From assembly GCF_024626475.1 (NCBI RefSeq), contig NZ_JANKHH010000007.1, forward strand, positions 434,001 to 498,000: a DNA stretch of 64,000 bases, read 5' to 3'. The position numbers and the translations under genes were made by a program. The notes below the pieces were generated by a model, which had not been told where the DNA came from, made no database searches, and saw only the letters and a list, made by a program, of their open reading frames with translations. The first letter of the stretch is position 1. Every line of letters starts with the position of its first letter. Positions 6,543 through 39,093 of this stretch are shown piece after piece. This DNA is from Parerythrobacter lacustris (GTDB taxonomy: Bacteria; Pseudomonadota; Alphaproteobacteria; Sphingomonadales; Sphingomonadaceae).

Positions 6543-6768
6543 GGCAGTCCTCTCTTGGGTGCTGCAGGGTAGCGCGCGCATCCCTGCGCGCAAGCCGTGG
6601 AGATTCTCGTCCGATCGCGCGCAACAGAAGGACGAAATTAACCATAAGAGGGCCGTCGAAAGGTTAAGTCGCTGATTTTGTGACTGTTCTTATCCGGGAA
6701 AGGTCCACTTTGGTGGAAACGCCATCTTTACGTTGTTCGTGTACCGCCAACTTACCAAGGAACCGCCT

Positions 6769-9078
6769 TTGCTGCAGAAACTGCGATCCCTCTACGCCAT
6801 CGAGCGTCTCCGCCATGCGGGCTTCGCCATCATTCTGGCGGCGCTGTTCTCTGCTGCCACGATTTTCCGCCCGATCGACATCGGTATCTGGTCGATGCAG
6901 TCGAAGATGTTCGACAAGCAGCCGAGCGGTGAGATCGCGCTGGTCACACTCGAAAGCTCCGACGCCTCGACCGGTGCCGTGGTGGCAAGTCGGCAACTCG
7001 TCGACACGCTCAACAAGCTCGAGGCCGACGGCGCAAAGCGGGTCGTACTCGATTTCCCGATCCGGAAGAGCGGTGCGGACAAACTCGATAGCGAGCTGCG
7101 CGAGACGCTGCTCGGATTGGGTGACAGGGCCGTGCTCACCCGCACAGTACGGACCGATCTCCTCGAGAGCAGGGCGGTCGCCGAAACCGACCCCTATTTC
7201 ACGCGCGACATGCGGGTCGTCAGCAGCGATTACGAAACTGACTTCCTCGATTTCGTCTGGGGTGTGGACCCATACTACGCTCACCGACAGTCGAAGCTGC
7301 CTGCCATGTGGACGGTCCTCGCGGACGAAGGCGATCAGAAGCGCCCGGTCCAGCCCGACTACACCGTCCAGACGGCGGCGGTTCCACATGGAACCTCAAC
7401 CGCGTTGATGAATGGTTCGACCATAGAGGTGGCCGGCAAAACTGTAGTCCTCGGCGCCACCGGCTCGCCCGCCCGCTCGGTCAAGGTTCCGAACGAGGGC
7501 TTCGTAACCTCCAGTCTCGTGCATATCGTTGGCGCGGAAACCGCGAAACGCGGGAGTGGCCAATTCTATGACTGGGGTATTTCGATCGCAGGATTCGGGA
7601 TCGCGTTCTTCCTCCTCCTCGCAACATTGCGCACCCGCCGTCGCCGCCGGATCGGCTACGCACTGTGGATGCTTGCCATCGGTTTCGCCATTGTTGTCGC
7701 ATCCGGACTGGGCATTCGAATTATCTTCACCGGACCGCTCGGCATCGCCGGCCTGTTTGCCATCCTTCGGTTCGCCGCGAACTTCAAGCGTCGCCATCTT
7801 CAGATCGAGCAGCGCAGCGGCTTGCCCAATTTCGTCGCGATGAACCGGGATTTGGGCAATCGCATCGGTGGCGAACGCATAGCGATTGTGGCCGTCAAGA
7901 TCGCCCGCCTCGATGCGATATTCGCGACCCTGTCGCAAGGAGATCAAGGCAGATATTTGCGCCAGATTGCCGGGCGACTGTCGCTGGGAGAGCAAAGCCA
8001 GACAATCTACTACGACGGCGGCAAGAACCTCGCCTTCGTGCTGCCGATCGCCGCCTATAACGACCTTCAGGGTCACCTGGAGGGCTTGCGCGCCATTGCG
8101 TCGCAATCGGTAAGCCTGTCCCAACGGGACCTCGATGTCTCGATGACTGTCGGTGTCGACCAGTCGTTCGAGAAGCCGATGGCGAGCCGGCTCAACTCAG
8201 CGATCGCCGCTGCCGATCAGGCCCGCGAGGCCTATCGCCCGGTCTTCGTTATATCCGATTTCGAAGCAGATAGCGAAGAATGGGACTATTCGCTCCAGGC
8301 CCGACTGGAAGACGCGCTGTCGGAAGACCGCATCGGAATCAAGCTGCAACCACAGGCCAATCTGCAAACGGGCGAGATCATCGGTGCGGAGTCGCTCGCC
8401 CGGTGGGTCGATGAAAAGCATGGCGATGTCTCTCCGGCCCGGTTCATACTCCAGTGCGAAAGGGCAGGGCGTCTCGACGATCTGACCAAGCGCATCACGC
8501 ACAAGACGCTGCGGGCCGCCGAGAGTCTCCTCGAGGACGGGTTCGAACCACAGATTTCGATCAATGTCTCGGCCATCCAGTTCGTCGACCACAGGATTGC
8601 GGATCTGGTCGAAGAGAACCTCGCGGCATGCCGGATGAACCCCGCAAATCTCGTGATCGAAGTAACCGAGACGGCGCGAATCGAGGACTTTGCCGTAGCG
8701 CGTGAAGTCTTCGAGCGGATCGGCAAGTCGGGTGTCAGGTTCTCGATCGACGATTTCGGTATCGCGAGTGCCAATTTCGATGCCCTGTCGGAACTGCCGT
8801 TCGATGAAATCAAGATCGATCTCGCCTTCGTGCACCGCATGCGCACCTCGCAGATGGCGCGATCGATCGTGTCCAACGTGATCCGCCTGGCGGGAGAGAC
8901 CGGGCTGGTTTCGGTGGCTGAGGGAATCGAGGATCGCGAATCATACGAAATGCTGAAAGATCTCGGCTGCGATATCGGTCAAGGCTTCTATATCGCCCGC
9001 CCGTTAACCCTAGGTGAGTTGAGTGAAACGCTTGGTTTACAAAGAGATAGAGGGCGGATCATGCGCAGGATTGGTTAA
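6769..9078 (+). CDS. Membrane-bound EAL phosphodiesterase with CHASE2-like sensor and degenerate GGDEF domain
   Basis: The 769-residue product has a membrane segment near residues 15-37, a periplasmic CHASE2-like region (about 40-255), two or three further membrane segments, a degenerate GGDEF domain with GGKNL in place of GGDEF near 417, and an EAL domain from about 510. The EAL metal and substrate residues are present: ESLAR, INVSAIQF, EVTET, DDFG, KIDLAFV, AEGIED and GQGF. It should therefore hydrolyse cyclic-di-GMP, with the dead GGDEF domain possibly regulatory. No ATG lies near the start. TTG 6769 is chosen because AAGGAA sits 6 nt upstream; TTG 6733 and GTG 6739 are alternatives. Confidence 0.88.
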   Translation: MLQKLRSLYAIERLRHAGFAIILAALFSAATIFRPIDIGIWSMQSKMFDKQPSGEIALVTLESSDASTGAVVASRQLVDTLNKLEADGAKRVVLDFPIRKSGADKLDSELRETLLGLGDRAVLTRTVRTDLLESRAVAETDPYFTRDMRVVSSDYETDFLDFVWGVDPYYAHRQSKLPAMWTVLADEGDQKRPVQPDYTVQTAAVPHGTSTALMNGSTIEVAGKTVVLGATGSPARSVKVPNEGFVTSSLVHIVGAETAKRGSGQFYDWGISIAGFGIAFFLLLATLRTRRRRRIGYALWMLAIGFAIVVASGLGIRIIFTGPLGIAGLFAILRFAANFKRRHLQIEQRSGLPNFVAMNRDLGNRIGGERIAIVAVKIARLDAIFATLSQGDQGRYLRQIAGRLSLGEQSQTIYYDGGKNLAFVLPIAAYNDLQGHLEGLRAIASQSVSLSQRDLDVSMTVGVDQSFEKPMASRLNSAIAAADQAREAYRPVFVISDFEADSEEWDYSLQARLEDALSEDRIGIKLQPQANLQTGEIIGAESLARWVDEKHGDVSPARFILQCERAGRLDDLTKRITHKTLRAAESLLEDGFEPQISINVSAIQFVDHRIADLVEENLAACRMNPANLVIEVTETARIEDFAVAREVFERIGKSGVRFSIDDFGIASANFDALSELPFDEIKIDLAFVHRMRTSQMARSIVSNVIRLAGETGLVSVAEGIEDRESYEMLKDLGCDIGQGFYIARPLTLGELSETLGLQRDRGRIMRRIG

Positions 9079-35617: not shown

Positions 35618-36027
35618 ACTTCGGGACTTACGACCAGAATGTTCATCACCGCGGTCGCGACAGGGCGTTTGCGGTCCTCTTGCCATGCCTCGACCGTCAG
35701 GTTGGCATTTCGCCTGCCGAGTTTGGTGATCCGGGCCTTCGCGTAAGTGGTCCGGTTCTTCGCGGCGGAAAGGAACTGGACGGTGATGTTTACCGGCTTC
35801 AGTTGGGGCTGGACCTCGCGGTCTGCCAGCGCGCTGCGCAGCGCGGCATAGCCTGCGGTTTCGAGCAATCCGCTCGTCGCGCCGCCATGGAACACCCCCG
35901 GTCGGCCCTCGACATTGGGCGCGAAGTCCACCGCGACGATCGGCAAGCCATCCTCTAAGGAGTCGACGGCGATACCCATCGAACGTGCGTAGGGCGGAAG
36001 CTCCGCCATTTTCTCATTGCGGGACAC
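35614..36027 (-). CDS. PaaI-type hotdog thioesterase
   Basis: The 137-residue hotdog-fold protein shows the YbgC/PaaI-like signature GVFHGGATSGLLETAGYAALRSAL and PVNITVQFLSAA. It probably hydrolyses aryl- or acyl-CoA. GTG 36027 has GGGGGA about 9 nt upstream; ATG 36009 is an internal alternative. Its start overlaps the end of the other hotdog gene by 14 nt, so the pair is co-translated and may form a heteromer. Confidence 0.88.
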   Translation of the reverse strand: MSRNEKMAELPPYARSMGIAVDSLEDGLPIVAVDFAPNVEGRPGVFHGGATSGLLETAGYAALRSALADREVQPQLKPVNITVQFLSAAKNRTTYAKARITKLGRRNANLTVEAWQEDRKRPVATAVMNILVVSPEV

Positions 36028-36469
36028 GGCGCGTATCCCCCGTGATGGTCATGAAAACCCCGGCGATATTGGCCACCGGATCGCCGGGATCGCCATCATG
36101 CGCTACCCCGCGCACGAAGGCGGCGGAGCGGGTGACCTTGTAGCATTCGGCATGCCCCACCACCGCCGCCCGCGCACGCGCCGGCCGCTGGTAGTCGACC
36201 CTCAGGTCCAGCGTGGCGATCGCCGCGAATTCCTTGCGCGCGGTCCAGATGCACAGGCCGGATGCCATGTCCATCAGGCTGACGATCGGACCCGAGGCAA
36301 GGACATGCCGGTCCGGCTCGCCCAGCAGGTCTTCGCGCCAGGGGAGTTCCAGCTCGACCCAGTTGTCACCCGCCGCCACGAACCGCAGCCCGAGCCACCC
36401 GGCGTGGCCATGCCCGAGCAGGAATTTCGCCGCGCGCGCGGGATCGAAACGGGCAACTGTCGATGTCAT
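36014..36469 (-). CDS. PaaI-type hotdog thioesterase
   Basis: The 151-residue hotdog-fold protein has RHVLASGPIVSLMDMASGLCIWTARKEFAAIATLDLRVDYQRPARA, the PaaI-type active-site helix with an Asp (VSLMDMASG). It is followed by the second hotdog gene with a 14-nt overlap. Both lie on the minus strand, convergent to the penicillin-binding protein gene. Confidence 0.88.
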   Translation of the reverse strand: MTSTVARFDPARAAKFLLGHGHAGWLGLRFVAAGDNWVELELPWREDLLGEPDRHVLASGPIVSLMDMASGLCIWTARKEFAAIATLDLRVDYQRPARARAAVVGHAECYKVTRSAAFVRGVAHDGDPGDPVANIAGVFMTITGDTRRVPQ

Positions 36470-36596
36470 CCCATTCGCTTAGGAGGAGGGCGGATGGACT
36501 TGCAATCTTCTAATTTCCTTGGCGGCGTTGCGACCCGCAATCTCGACCAGCAGCGCAGGCATTCCGTCTGCGGCTGCCAGACAAGGGGGAATGACC

Positions 36597-36761
36597 ATGC
36601 ACCTGCCCAAAATCGACCTGTCCAGCCTGCCCGACCTGCCGGAGGCCAGCGGCGCTTTCGGTTCGCTGTCCGACCTGGCTACTGCAACCACCGATGACCG
36701 GATCCTGATCATCATGGTTTACATCTATGAAATGATCCCGCCCGAAGCTCTGGTCTTCTGA
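36597..36761 (+). CDS. Small peptide of 54 residues heading an unrecognised three-gene unit
   Basis: The peptide begins MHLPKIDLSSLPDLPEASG and continues with a Gly/Ser/Ala segment, then a DD pair and a hydrophobic aromatic tail (IIMVYIYEMIPPEALVF). AAGGGGGA lies 7 nt upstream of the ATG at 36597; ATG 36591 is too close to it. It has no cysteine and no classical signal peptide. The leader-like N-terminus followed by a compact C-terminal tail, next to two cupin-like genes, is compatible with a modified peptide precursor or with a small structural subunit. Six nt separate it from the next gene. I do not recognise the family. Confidence 0.65.
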   Translation: MHLPKIDLSSLPDLPEASGAFGSLSDLATATTDDRILIIMVYIYEMIPPEALVF

Positions 36762-36767
36762 ACGGCG

Positions 36768-37724
36768 ATGCGGGTCGATCCGGCAATCACGGCGTTGCGG
36801 GGGGATGTCGCTTCGCAGCGCCGGTCGCAAGCGGCGCTCGAGGCAGTCAAGGCGGCGTGGCGGGCCGATGCCGGGGCCGGTGTGGTCGAAGGGCTGCAGC
36901 GCTACGCGCAGGGCGCAAAGCTGGGGGATTGCGCCATGCTGGCGGCAGAGTTCCTCGGATCGGACCTCGGGCGTATCCGGGAGCTTCTTTCCGGCTGGCT
37001 CGACTGCCTTTCGCGTCATCCTTTCGGCCATGTCCCTGCGCGCCATCAGTACTCCGGCGGAATCGGATTGATCCAACTCGCCGAGTCCGGCGGGGCGGCA
37101 TTGTCTCTGGTGCTGCACGAGGCGAGCTCGGCGCAAAAGGAACCTCGCACGGTCAGCTTCGTCGATGCTGAACGGCACGAATTCGTCCTCGCCGGTAAAG
37201 GTTGCGCCTCGGGTTATCGCTGGAGCGGCCGCGACGGCGATCAACCCGAAAGCCGTCAGCTTTCGCTCGAACCGGGATCCTTGGTCGCTTTGCCGGATCG
37301 GTATCAGGCGAAGCAGGTCGTTCGGGTCGACCAGTCGCTGGTCATGCTGCGCCTGAGCAGGGCACCCGAACGGCCTCGACCGAGCGTCGAGCTATGTCTA
37401 GCGGATGGCCGGATCGTCCATCGCGCCACCGGGGACCGGCGCGAAAGTTGCCGGGAAATGGCGATGGCCGTGCTGACCGCAATGGGGCGGACCGATGCGG
37501 TGCCTGCGCTCGCAGCACGTGCTTTGCTCGGGGGGTGTGAAGAGCGGTGGCAGACACTGCGGCACTGCCTGGCGCTCGACGGCAGCGAAGGCATGCGGTT
37601 GTTGCGAATGGTCGCGAGCGACACGACCGATCCGCTCAATGCCAGCGCGGCCCAGCTGCTTGCCGTGCTGGCACAGCGTTTTCCGGAATTCGCACAGGAT
37701 CGGCCCGTAGCGTGCCACGCGTAA
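36768..37724 (+). CDS. Unrecognised protein, degenerate cupin-like core plus helical C-terminus
   Basis: The 318-residue protein is not one I recognise. The central third (GGIGLIQLAESGGAALSLVLHE to SLEPGSLVALPDRYQAKQVV and QSLVMLRLSRAP) reads as cupin-type beta strands but without a full HxH metal set. The C-terminal third (MAMAVLTAMGRTDAVPALAARALLGG, then LDGSEGMRLLRMVASDTTDPLNASAAQLLAVL) looks like paired helices of a HEAT-type repeat. The layout parallels the next gene, so the two may be ancient duplicates with this one having lost metal binding. It follows the 54-aa peptide gene by 6 nt. Confidence 0.75.
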   Translation: MRVDPAITALRGDVASQRRSQAALEAVKAAWRADAGAGVVEGLQRYAQGAKLGDCAMLAAEFLGSDLGRIRELLSGWLDCLSRHPFGHVPARHQYSGGIGLIQLAESGGAALSLVLHEASSAQKEPRTVSFVDAERHEFVLAGKGCASGYRWSGRDGDQPESRQLSLEPGSLVALPDRYQAKQVVRVDQSLVMLRLSRAPERPRPSVELCLADGRIVHRATGDRRESCREMAMAVLTAMGRTDAVPALAARALLGGCEERWQTLRHCLALDGSEGMRLLRMVASDTTDPLNASAAQLLAVLAQRFPEFAQDRPVACHA

Positions 37725-37750
37725 TAGACGTTCCGACCGACGACCGGCAG

Positions 37751-38611
37751 ATGGGGGTCGAAGAGTGTGCCTCCGCAATTGCAGCCATAGGATTCGACCC
37801 CGCCTGCCCCGGCATGGTCGACGAAGTCGCCGGCCTCCTCCGAGCGCTCGGCGCGAACCGCACCTTCCTTGGCGACGGGCTCGTCGAACTGCTGGCCGAA
37901 AGCGGGAAGGGCGAGACACCGCAAAGCGCCTACAGCCCGCAATCGATCATGCTGACTTCGCCGCGCAACGGCTTTTTCCTGCGCGCCAACATCTGGCCGT
38001 CCGAACAGGACAGTTGCTTCCGCCGGAGCGGGGCACACAATTTTGCCTATGGCGCGGCGCATGATCACAATTTCGATTTCCTGACCTACGGCTATTTCGG
38101 GCCGGGCTATCGCAGCGACTATTACGAATACGATTATCACACGGTCACGGGCTATCGCGGCGAGCCAGTCGGCTTGCGCTTCATCGAGCGCAGTGCGCTT
38201 TCGCCGGGCAGGCTGATGCACTACCGGGCGCATCGCGATGTCCACGCGCAACTGCCGCCGGACAGTCTCTCGGTGTCGCTCAATGTCATGGCCTGCGAAC
38301 CGGCGCAGGGATGGCATGACCAGTATGGCTTCGACCTCACGCGCGGAACAGTGAGCAGGGTGCTCAATAGCGGTTCGACGGAAACCTTGCTGCGCATTGC
38401 CGTGGCGCTGGGTGACGAGGAGGGAGTCGGCTTGGCCGAAGACTGGGGGCGCAACCATGCGAGCGACCGGATTCGGCTCGCGTGCTTCGAAGCGCGGGCA
38501 TTAGCTGCGCATGATCCGTCCAACCGCGACACGATCTGGCGCGAGGCCGAGCGTTCGGGCAGCTTGCTGGTGAAAAAGGAAGCCGAATTGCGGCGGCGCG
38601 AATCAGCTTAA
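37751..38611 (+). CDS. Unrecognised cupin-like protein with intact histidines and helical C-terminus
   Basis: About 286 residues from ATG 37751; a GTG at 37712 overlapping the upstream gene would add 13. The core has GAHNFAYGAAHDHNFDFLTYGYFGPG, a cupin-type HxH cluster, later HYRAHRDVHAQLPPDSLSVSLNV with a further histidine on the expected return strand. Four or more histidines could bind iron or another metal, suggesting an oxygenase. The C-terminus (TLLRIAVALGDEEGVGLAEDWGRNH, DRIRLACFEARALAAHD) is helical like the preceding gene. It is unannotated by any family name I know. Its stop overlaps the ruvX stop. Confidence 0.75.
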   Translation: MGVEECASAIAAIGFDPACPGMVDEVAGLLRALGANRTFLGDGLVELLAESGKGETPQSAYSPQSIMLTSPRNGFFLRANIWPSEQDSCFRRSGAHNFAYGAAHDHNFDFLTYGYFGPGYRSDYYEYDYHTVTGYRGEPVGLRFIERSALSPGRLMHYRAHRDVHAQLPPDSLSVSLNVMACEPAQGWHDQYGFDLTRGTVSRVLNSGSTETLLRIAVALGDEEGVGLAEDWGRNHASDRIRLACFEARALAAHDPSNRDTIWREAERSGSLLVKKEAELRRRESA

Positions 38612-39093
38612 AAGGCGCTTCCGGCCAGCGCATCGATTGCGCCCTGCAGGATGATCGCGGCGGCATGGCTGTCGATCCGCTCGGCGCGCTTCCTGCGGCT
38701 GAAATCCTGCCCGATCATGTCGCGCTCGGCGCTCGCGGTCGACCAGCGTTCGTCCCACAGCAGGACCGGCAGATCGAGCGCCTGCGCGAGGTTGCGGGCA
38801 TAGGCGCGGCTCGATTGCGCGCGGGGGCCTTCGCTGCCGTCCATGTTGCGCGGAAGGCCGAGCACGATGCCCCTGATCGCGCGTTCCTGGACGATGGCGG
38901 ATAGTGCAGCGGCATCTCTCGAGAACTTGCCCTTGGGCAGGGTCTTGCCCGCGGTTGCGAAGCTCCATGCGGCATCGCAGGTTGCGATGCCGAGGGTCTT
39001 GGTGCCGAGATCGAGCCCCAGCAGTGCGCCGCCATCGCCCACTGCGGCGCCAAACTCGCTGGCGCTTTCGGTGATCAGGACGTCTTGCCCCAT
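38608..39093 (-). CDS. ruvX: Holliday junction resolvase-like / pre-16S rRNA nuclease RuvX (YqgF)
   Basis: The 161-residue RNase H-fold protein shows the family motifs LLGLDLGTKTLGIATCD (first catalytic Asp), GIVLGLPRNMDGSEGPRAQSSRAYA, PVLLWDERWSTASAERDM and RIDSHAAAIILQGAID (last catalytic Asp). In E. coli YqgF processes the 5' end of 16S rRNA. Its stop overlaps the stop of the convergent cupin-like gene and its start overlaps the DUF3089 gene by 19 nt. Confidence 0.95.
   Translation of the reverse strand: MGQDVLITESASEFGAAVGDGGALLGLDLGTKTLGIATCDAAWSFATAGKTLPKGKFSRDAAALSAIVQERAIRGIVLGLPRNMDGSEGPRAQSSRAYARNLAQALDLPVLLWDERWSTASAERDMIGQDFSRRKRAERIDSHAAAIILQGAIDALAGSAF

Follow-up and report, generated by a model that had tools for sequence, protein, structure and literature searches.

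The thiol dioxygenase fold is known from cysteine catabolism and from oxygen sensing on protein N-termini. In the portions of the literature available, the three-histidine site is described as strictly conserved in the thiol dioxygenase superfamily, and the Ser-His-Tyr motif of CDO and MDO as missing in ADO and PCO (PMC8503633); ADO is described as sulfinylating the N-terminal cysteines of proteins (PMC11406360). A cupin-like enzyme has also been assigned to a ribosomal peptide pathway, namely PbsQ, a JmjC-related RiPP hydroxylase that acts on a residue of its precursor, according to the accessible part of its description (PMC12257519).

Here, we describe a trio of genes, P1, P2, and P3, located within the window (the whole stretch of 64,000 nucleotides that was analyzed). 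With modest confidence, we read the trio as an undescribed RiPP-like system, in which a metal enzyme, P3, oxidizes a small peptide, P1, with a pseudo-enzyme, P2, as partner. Among the literature matches listed, represented by titles and the beginnings of abstracts with most subscription papers outside reach, no paper concerned the trio, and these partial records yielded no RiPP cupin enzyme combining the fold of P3 with a partner of the P2 type.

Organization and boundaries of the trio

The features of the locus, in window coordinates, are as follows.

36014..36469, - strand: left border gene, thioesterase-like (which we take to be PaaI-like), divergent, outside the system
36583..36589, + strand: purine-rich Shine-Dalgarno-like stretch, 7 nt ahead of the P1 start, as read from the sequence
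36597..36761, + strand: P1, 54-residue peptide; leader-like block MHLPKIDLSSLPDLPEASGAFGS, linker, then TDDRILIIMVYIYEMIPPEALVF
36768..37724, + strand: P2, 318 residues; N-terminal helices, cupin barrel without conserved histidine, HEAT-like tail with R260-W261; putative pseudo-enzyme partner
37712..38611, + strand: P3, 299 residues, GTG start; thiol-dioxygenase-like cupin barrel with H117-D-H119 ... H178-x-Q180, HEAT-like tail; putative catalytic subunit
38608..39093, - strand: right border gene, ruvX-like (presumably encoding a RuvX-like protein), convergent, touching the end of P3, outside the system

As an earlier sequence-only reading of this DNA had proposed, all three genes lie on one strand, the first encodes a 54-residue peptide free of cysteine, and P2 begins 6 nt past the end of P1. 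The gap of 26 nt that the same reading placed between P2 and P3 is replaced by an overlap. P3 likely starts at the GTG at 37712, because the alignment of relatives supports this start and residue 2 is proline in 77 of 85 copies (the protein of the window begins MPRVID...), and with this start the P2 and P3 reading frames share 13 nt. An identical 13-nt overlap is found in 56 of the 85 copies, which suggests that translation of P2 and P3 is coupled. A scan for promoters and terminators returned nothing above chance.

The left border gene was searched for in 13 relatives without P3 and found in nine. In three of these (L143, L144, and L145), the two border genes are only ∼50–115 nt apart (BLAST ends), which marks the trio, on this comparison of sites, as a discrete cassette that enters or leaves this position as a whole; in the other six, ruvX was absent from the 1.5 kb examined beside the left gene. 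P3 matches are fragmentary or split in five genomes (G605, G621, G568, G074, and G572), which suggests decay of the cassette in some lineages, although some of these cases may be contig ends or assembly errors.

Predicted folds and paralogy of P2 and P3

No Pfam or NCBIfam family was matched above cut-off by P1, P2, or P3 of the window, and five proteins searched against the PADLOC models of known anti-phage defense systems, the window's three included, matched 0 families at E<=1, in agreement with the earlier statement that no named family applied. The Pfam and NCBIfam searches of six relatives' peptides, one P2, and one P3 likewise gave no family for P1, P3, or the P2 barrel, and searching the PDB by sequence returned nothing for these same three. 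The P2 profile matched mostly artificial repeat proteins in the PDB, over the tail. Matches to DUF693 (E 0.45 and 0.074) were below the family cut-off and were rejected. No RiPP recognition element, which is frequent though not universal in RiPP systems, was matched by P2 or P3 in sequence searches of Pfam or NCBIfam.

AlphaFold models of P2 and P3 (mean pLDDT 94.1 from 61 sequences and 95.0 from 58 sequences, respectively) present their parts in the same order: N-terminal helices, cupin strands, and a helical HEAT-like tail. The P2 and P3 profiles align with probability 94.4 and E 8.8e-8 over 146 columns, which take in part of the barrel as well as the tail, and by this measure the two proteins are distant paralogs. 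Models and profiles thus agree on the common layout of cupin core and HEAT-like C terminus that had been read from the sequence, and the unrelated folds that the same reading had named as evidence against itself were not what structure prediction gave. With HEAT_2, 35 of the 61 P2 members gave matches at E<=0.01, the best being 5.9e-12, as did 22 of the 58 P3 members at E<=0.1, with a best of 4.3e-5; the repeats were matched in the tails of relatives only, and not in the window's own P2 or P3.

The two barrels differ in their conserved residues. Ten residues of P3 are invariant in 58/58 members (R91, W95, H117, D118, H119, H178, Q180, S187, S189, and N191), the invariant histidine motif reads HDH...DVHxQ, and Q77 is kept in 57/58. 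The P2 barrel has no conserved histidine (61 rows); columns with more than 30% histidine are confined to tail residues 262 and 288 (window numbering), and the residues that are invariant besides the start are R260 and W261, also in the tail. The HxH motif is therefore kept in the last protein and lost in the middle one, as originally noted, and the accompanying idea of an active and a pseudo-subunit fits these alignments, with P3 as the putative catalytic subunit and P2 as its putative pseudo-subunit. Structural matches of P2 are a mixture of cupins, e.g., ectoine synthase (Z 12.0, rmsd 2.6, 104 aligned) and CDO (Z 11.2, rmsd 3.8, 162 aligned), and no weight is placed on the absence of a given family from this mixture.

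Relationship of P3 to thiol dioxygenases

Foldseek placed mercaptosuccinate and 3-mercaptopropionate dioxygenases at the top for P3 and also listed 3-hydroxyanthranilate dioxygenase, which occupied ranks 28, 47, and 49. The best VIA-align match of the predicted model was 4qma (Z 13.6, rmsd 3.1, 158 aligned), and 50 of the 50 matches listed were thiol-type dioxygenases, including ergothioneine dioxygenase and YubC of B. subtilis. As modeled, the barrel of P3 is the cupin barrel of the thiol dioxygenase superfamily, and the protein is built like a thiol dioxygenase, perhaps one of the peptide-oxidizing type. It was not assigned to the superfamily as a member because the CDO_I and PCO_ADO profiles do not match it, neither giving a match among 58 P3 members at E<=0.1. 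PCO_ADO is present in 2/299 genomes and CDO_I in 3/59.

P3 was also compared with an alignment of ten MDO-like proteins, comprising three from relatives and seven from plasmid records, with L121 left out; one of the relatives' proteins matched 6xb9 in the PDB at E 7.7e-63. The resulting match runs colinearly through 172 columns but is weak, at probability 4.7% and E 0.0086; its score of 25.8 exceeded those of 40/40 column shuffles (highest 23.6). In this weak alignment, HDH falls on HDH and DVH on DIH, placing the three histidines in the same register, and hhalign pairs Q77 of P3 with a glutamine of the YQQ motif in MDO relatives. The Ser-His-Tyr motif is absent in P3, where the aligned positions are S189, N191, and M/L/V/I193. 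Comparison with the three MDO relatives only was weaker for P3 (probability 1.3%) and gave no match for P2.

Linkage of the peptide gene to P2 and P3

P3 was present in 34/148 relatives, 99/296 genomes of the order, and 15/398 genomes of the phylum, the window's genome being counted in each; 13 of the last 15 belong to the window's family. Of 415 pattern matches from a scan of GTDB, 399 were confirmed as P3 relatives, and the best 80 loci were kept, which carry 85 P3 copies. P2 lies directly upstream of P3 in 85/85 copies of these best 80 loci, including three in which it is partly lost at contig ends (L044, L054, and L110). A P1 profile built from 31 candidates detected a peptide upstream of P2 in 68/85 copies at E<=1e-3 and in 80/85 at E<=1 (two of the 80 loci, L092 and L098, come from organisms already represented in the profile). 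Control regions drawn at random from these loci gave 0/390 and 1/390 at these cut-offs with equal database size, and 0/390 at both when scored at larger database size; six loci shorter than 6 kb contributed no control regions. The peptide is thus kept together with the larger genes in relatives, where the sequence-only reading had named its absence or non-conservation as the finding that would speak against a unit.

The five copies without a peptide match at E<=1 are those of the contig-end loci L044, L054, and L110, copy 0 of L055, whose candidate peptide is weak (E 8.1, within control noise), and L078, in which P2 and P3 are present and the P1 profile search recognized no peptide. A divergent, shortened P2-P3-like pair with 27% identity to P3 is found on plasmid p1-ED002 of Vibrio sp. 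ED002 (L033:7201-8609), where it sits between transposon and restriction-modification genes; a recognizable peptide was not found with this pair. Two complete P2-P3 pairs with differing peptide types lie in tandem, ∼2.5–3 kb apart, in L039, L053, L055, L077, and L085. At one locus (L073:8131-9954; 1/85 copies), P2 and P3 form a single open frame, possibly a natural fusion and possibly a frameshift or sequencing error, to which no weight is given. The P3 of L084, a record titled Bacillus sp. 2B10, falls inside a Sphingomonas clade of the P3 tree, which probably reflects a contaminated record or an incorrect label. The system as a whole is spread over Sphingomonadales and some gammaproteobacteria. 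A phage system is unsupported, as viral collections gave only one distant relative, at a contig end.

Conservation and variation of P1

In 22 P1 representatives, a conserved N-terminal block with the majority pattern I....LP.L...VG..G is joined by a variable linker to a C-terminal part that is hydrophobic; the two blocks are leader-like and core-like and may correspond to a leader and a core. The window's peptide group, 39 peptides chosen by pattern, follows the frame M.LPkid.s.LPdLd..tG.fGs, a variable linker, dD, and then mv..Y. The last frame column is Tyr in 37/39, Trp in one, and Cys in one, and Glu or Asp follows it directly in 36/39. Within this group, pN/pS of P1 ranged from 0.22 to 0.54 in 10/10 pairs, and in the three pairs of equal length for which changes were counted, most were at third codon positions; judged by these substitutions, P1 is under purifying selection for its amino-acid sequence, beyond mere position. 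Conservation of both blocks within the group suggests a constant role, e.g., as a signal or cofactor, rather than that of an arms-race toxin, and the clade with exporters (described below) may differ in this respect.

Other peptide groups are built differently: some end in ...DDLFELIVGIAILIYE..., some carry EVGG followed by Cys and a Gly-rich hydrophobic stretch, and some consist of two GxxxG-rich peptides in tandem. Two differing peptides precede one P2-P3 pair in L035, L039, L053, and L085. In a set of 117 peptides, which takes in candidates picked by eye or at weak E and has one sequence twice, the hydrophobic maximum lies within the second half of 116, Cys occurs in 33, and no potentially modifiable residue is common to all tails. 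The remaining 84/117 and the P1 of the window contain no Cys; the usual thiol chemistry therefore cannot apply throughout, and cysteine oxidation is ruled out as the general reaction.

Genomic surroundings of the trio

Neighboring genes were surveyed at 82 loci, i.e., the 80 GTDB loci and two plasmid loci. ABC exporter genes adjoin the trio in 10/82 (L032, L034, L035, L036, L039, L042, L053, L055, L077, and L085). Pfam backs the exporters of L032, L034, L039, L042, L055, and L085 (HlyD, ABC_tran, MacB_PCD/FtsX, ABC2_membrane_3, or ABC_membrane), and the calls in L035, L036, L053, and L077 rest on BLAST clustering; L041, L046, L049, L059, and L100, whose ABC genes are more distant or lie on the opposite strand, were left out. 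The ten exporter loci cluster on a quick P3 tree (2 changes, a value reached by 0/500 shuffles), within a 13-member clade that includes three Aquisalinus copies without exporters. In the five tandem loci named above, the second pair alone falls in this clade. In L032, on plasmid pASTE61-200 of Alteromonas stellipolaris, two small ORFs with hydrophobic tails (6588-6737 and 6836-6961) lie between a MacB-like permease gene and P2, and both are omitted from the PLSDB gene table, which is incomplete.

ECF-sigma-like genes were found upstream of the trio in 12/82 loci and winged-helix regulator genes downstream in 26/82, as assigned by Pfam on one and two representatives, respectively. C39 peptidase genes occur in 9/10 genomes tested; none was seen beside the trio in the ten, as far as contig numbers and positions match. 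A GG-leader/C39 bacteriocin is ruled out as an account of all clades, the GG step being found in some groups only and C39 not beside the trio. No adjacent protease was seen at the trio, and in the window's clade no exporter, ECF-sigma-like, winged-helix, or C39 accessory genes lie beside it.

Discussion

In the RiPP-like system that we favor, P1 would be a ribosomal peptide precursor whose N-terminal block serves for recognition and whose C-terminal core is hydrophobic, and P3 a mononuclear non-heme iron (or similar metal) enzyme whose thiol-dioxygenase-like barrel would use O2 to oxidize the core. P2, the paralog whose barrel lacks metal ligands, would pair with P3 and present the peptide, thus serving in assembly or substrate presentation. 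The product would probably be exported by the adjacent ABC transporters in one clade; in the window's clade, it would be exported via genes elsewhere or act inside the cell. As a first guess, the modified residue would be the oxidizable side chain at the Tyr column of the window's group, because this position is Tyr in all but two peptides (which have Trp or Cys) and is nearly always followed by an acidic residue. A peptide modified by a metal oxygenase complex had been one of two possibilities raised by the sequence-only reading, and it is the best reading here too, one toward which we lean; the modification, the metal, the O2 chemistry, the P2-P3 complex, and P1 as substrate are what we infer.

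The RiPP-like system is supported by the conserved trio, the selection on P1, its leader-like and core-like blocks, the paralogy of P2 and P3, the invariant three-histidine set and thiol-dioxygenase-like fold of P3, the missing Ser-His-Tyr motif, which ADO and PCO, oxidizing proteins and peptides, lack as well, and the clustering of exporter loci on the P3 tree. It is weakened by the many peptides without Cys, by the lack of an adjacent protease and of an exporter in the window's clade, by the weak sequence similarity of P3 to thiol dioxygenases, by the appearance of 3-hydroxyanthranilate dioxygenase among the Foldseek matches, by the P2-P3 pairs of L078 and Vibrio L033 without a recognizable peptide, and by the want of a modifiable residue common to all peptide tails.

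The main rival, which corresponds to the sensor or structural complex that had been raised as the other possibility, is that P1 is a small subunit rather than a substrate, its N-terminal block binding P2/P3 and its tail anchoring the complex to the membrane, where it would sense oxygen, metal, or the envelope. The conserved state of the two P1 blocks in the window's group, the ECF-sigma-like and winged-helix neighbors, and a cassette that stands alone without an exporter in the window's clade would all suit such a role, but a product better fits both the two differing peptides ahead of single P2-P3 pairs and the exporters that adjoin the trio in one clade, and the invariant residues of P3 look catalytic; we consider a sensor or anchor unlikely. 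An unmodified bacteriocin-like or toxin-like P1, for which P2 and P3 would provide immunity or act as antitoxin or chaperone, is very improbable: hydrophobic tails rich in GxxxG, peptides in pairs, and ABC genes, all in one clade, together with the patchy distribution and broken copies, are of the kind expected, but the invariant metal-site-like residues of P3 are unexpected for an immunity protein, PADLOC gives no match, and the core sequence is conserved within the window's group. Little credence can be given to P3 as an ordinary small-molecule thiol dioxygenase with P1 as a mere neighbor or translation-coupling leader, since the closest folds (mercaptosuccinate, 3-mercaptopropionate, and cysteine dioxygenases) and the alignment of Q77 with a YQQ glutamine of MDO relatives are set against a missing Ser-His-Tyr motif, selection on the amino-acid sequence of P1, and constant accompaniment by a paralog without metal ligands (85/85).

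If the RiPP-like system is as we propose, a ribosomal peptide pathway exists for which Pfam, NCBIfam, and PADLOC hold no model, with a P1 gene small enough for gene tables to miss, and the thiol-dioxygenase fold enters peptide natural-product chemistry with a clear enzyme/pseudo-enzyme pair. The narrower claim of a new ribosomal peptide class, in which an iron enzyme of thiol-dioxygenase fold, paired with its degenerate paralog, would have switched from thiols to oxidizing a side chain other than a thiol on a small hydrophobic peptide, e.g., the Tyr (Trp or Cys in single cases) ahead of the acidic residue in the window's group, is offered tentatively and remains rather doubtful.

Comparison with known systems

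Double-glycine-leader and two-peptide bacteriocins resemble the present loci in the EVGG-type step of some peptide groups and in the GxxxG-rich tails, paired peptides, and ABC exporters of one clade, the two-peptide type being presumably that of class IIb. They differ in that no C39 peptidase was seen beside the trios and the window's type has neither a GG site nor an exporter, and we know of no P2-P3 pair in such systems. MNIO (DUF692) enzymes with a partner, e.g., MbnBC and TglHI, similarly combine a short precursor gene with an iron enzyme and a partner protein that act on the peptide, as far as partial accounts of them go. In contrast, P3 is a cupin with no DUF692 match (this domain was absent from the Pfam results for 58 P3 sequences at E<=0.1 and for 61 P2 sequences at E<=0.01), its partner P2 is paralogous to the enzyme, and the P1 of the window is free of Cys.

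Thiol dioxygenases (CDO, 3-mercaptopropionate and mercaptosuccinate dioxygenases, and ADO/PCO) are set apart by the HEAT-like tail of P3, its obligate paralogous partner, the linked peptide gene, and the lack of a CDO_I or PCO_ADO match in 58 members. They share with P3 the cupin barrel, as its top structural matches, and the register of the three histidines in the weak profile alignment; ADO and PCO, according to the available part of the source (PMC8503633), are likewise without the Ser-His-Tyr motif. PbsQ, as partially documented (PMC12257519), is comparable in being cupin-like and in hydroxylating a residue within a RiPP precursor, but it is JmjC-related and performs one tailoring step of a larger cluster, whereas the best structural matches of P3 are thiol dioxygenases and P3 has a putative pseudo-enzyme partner.
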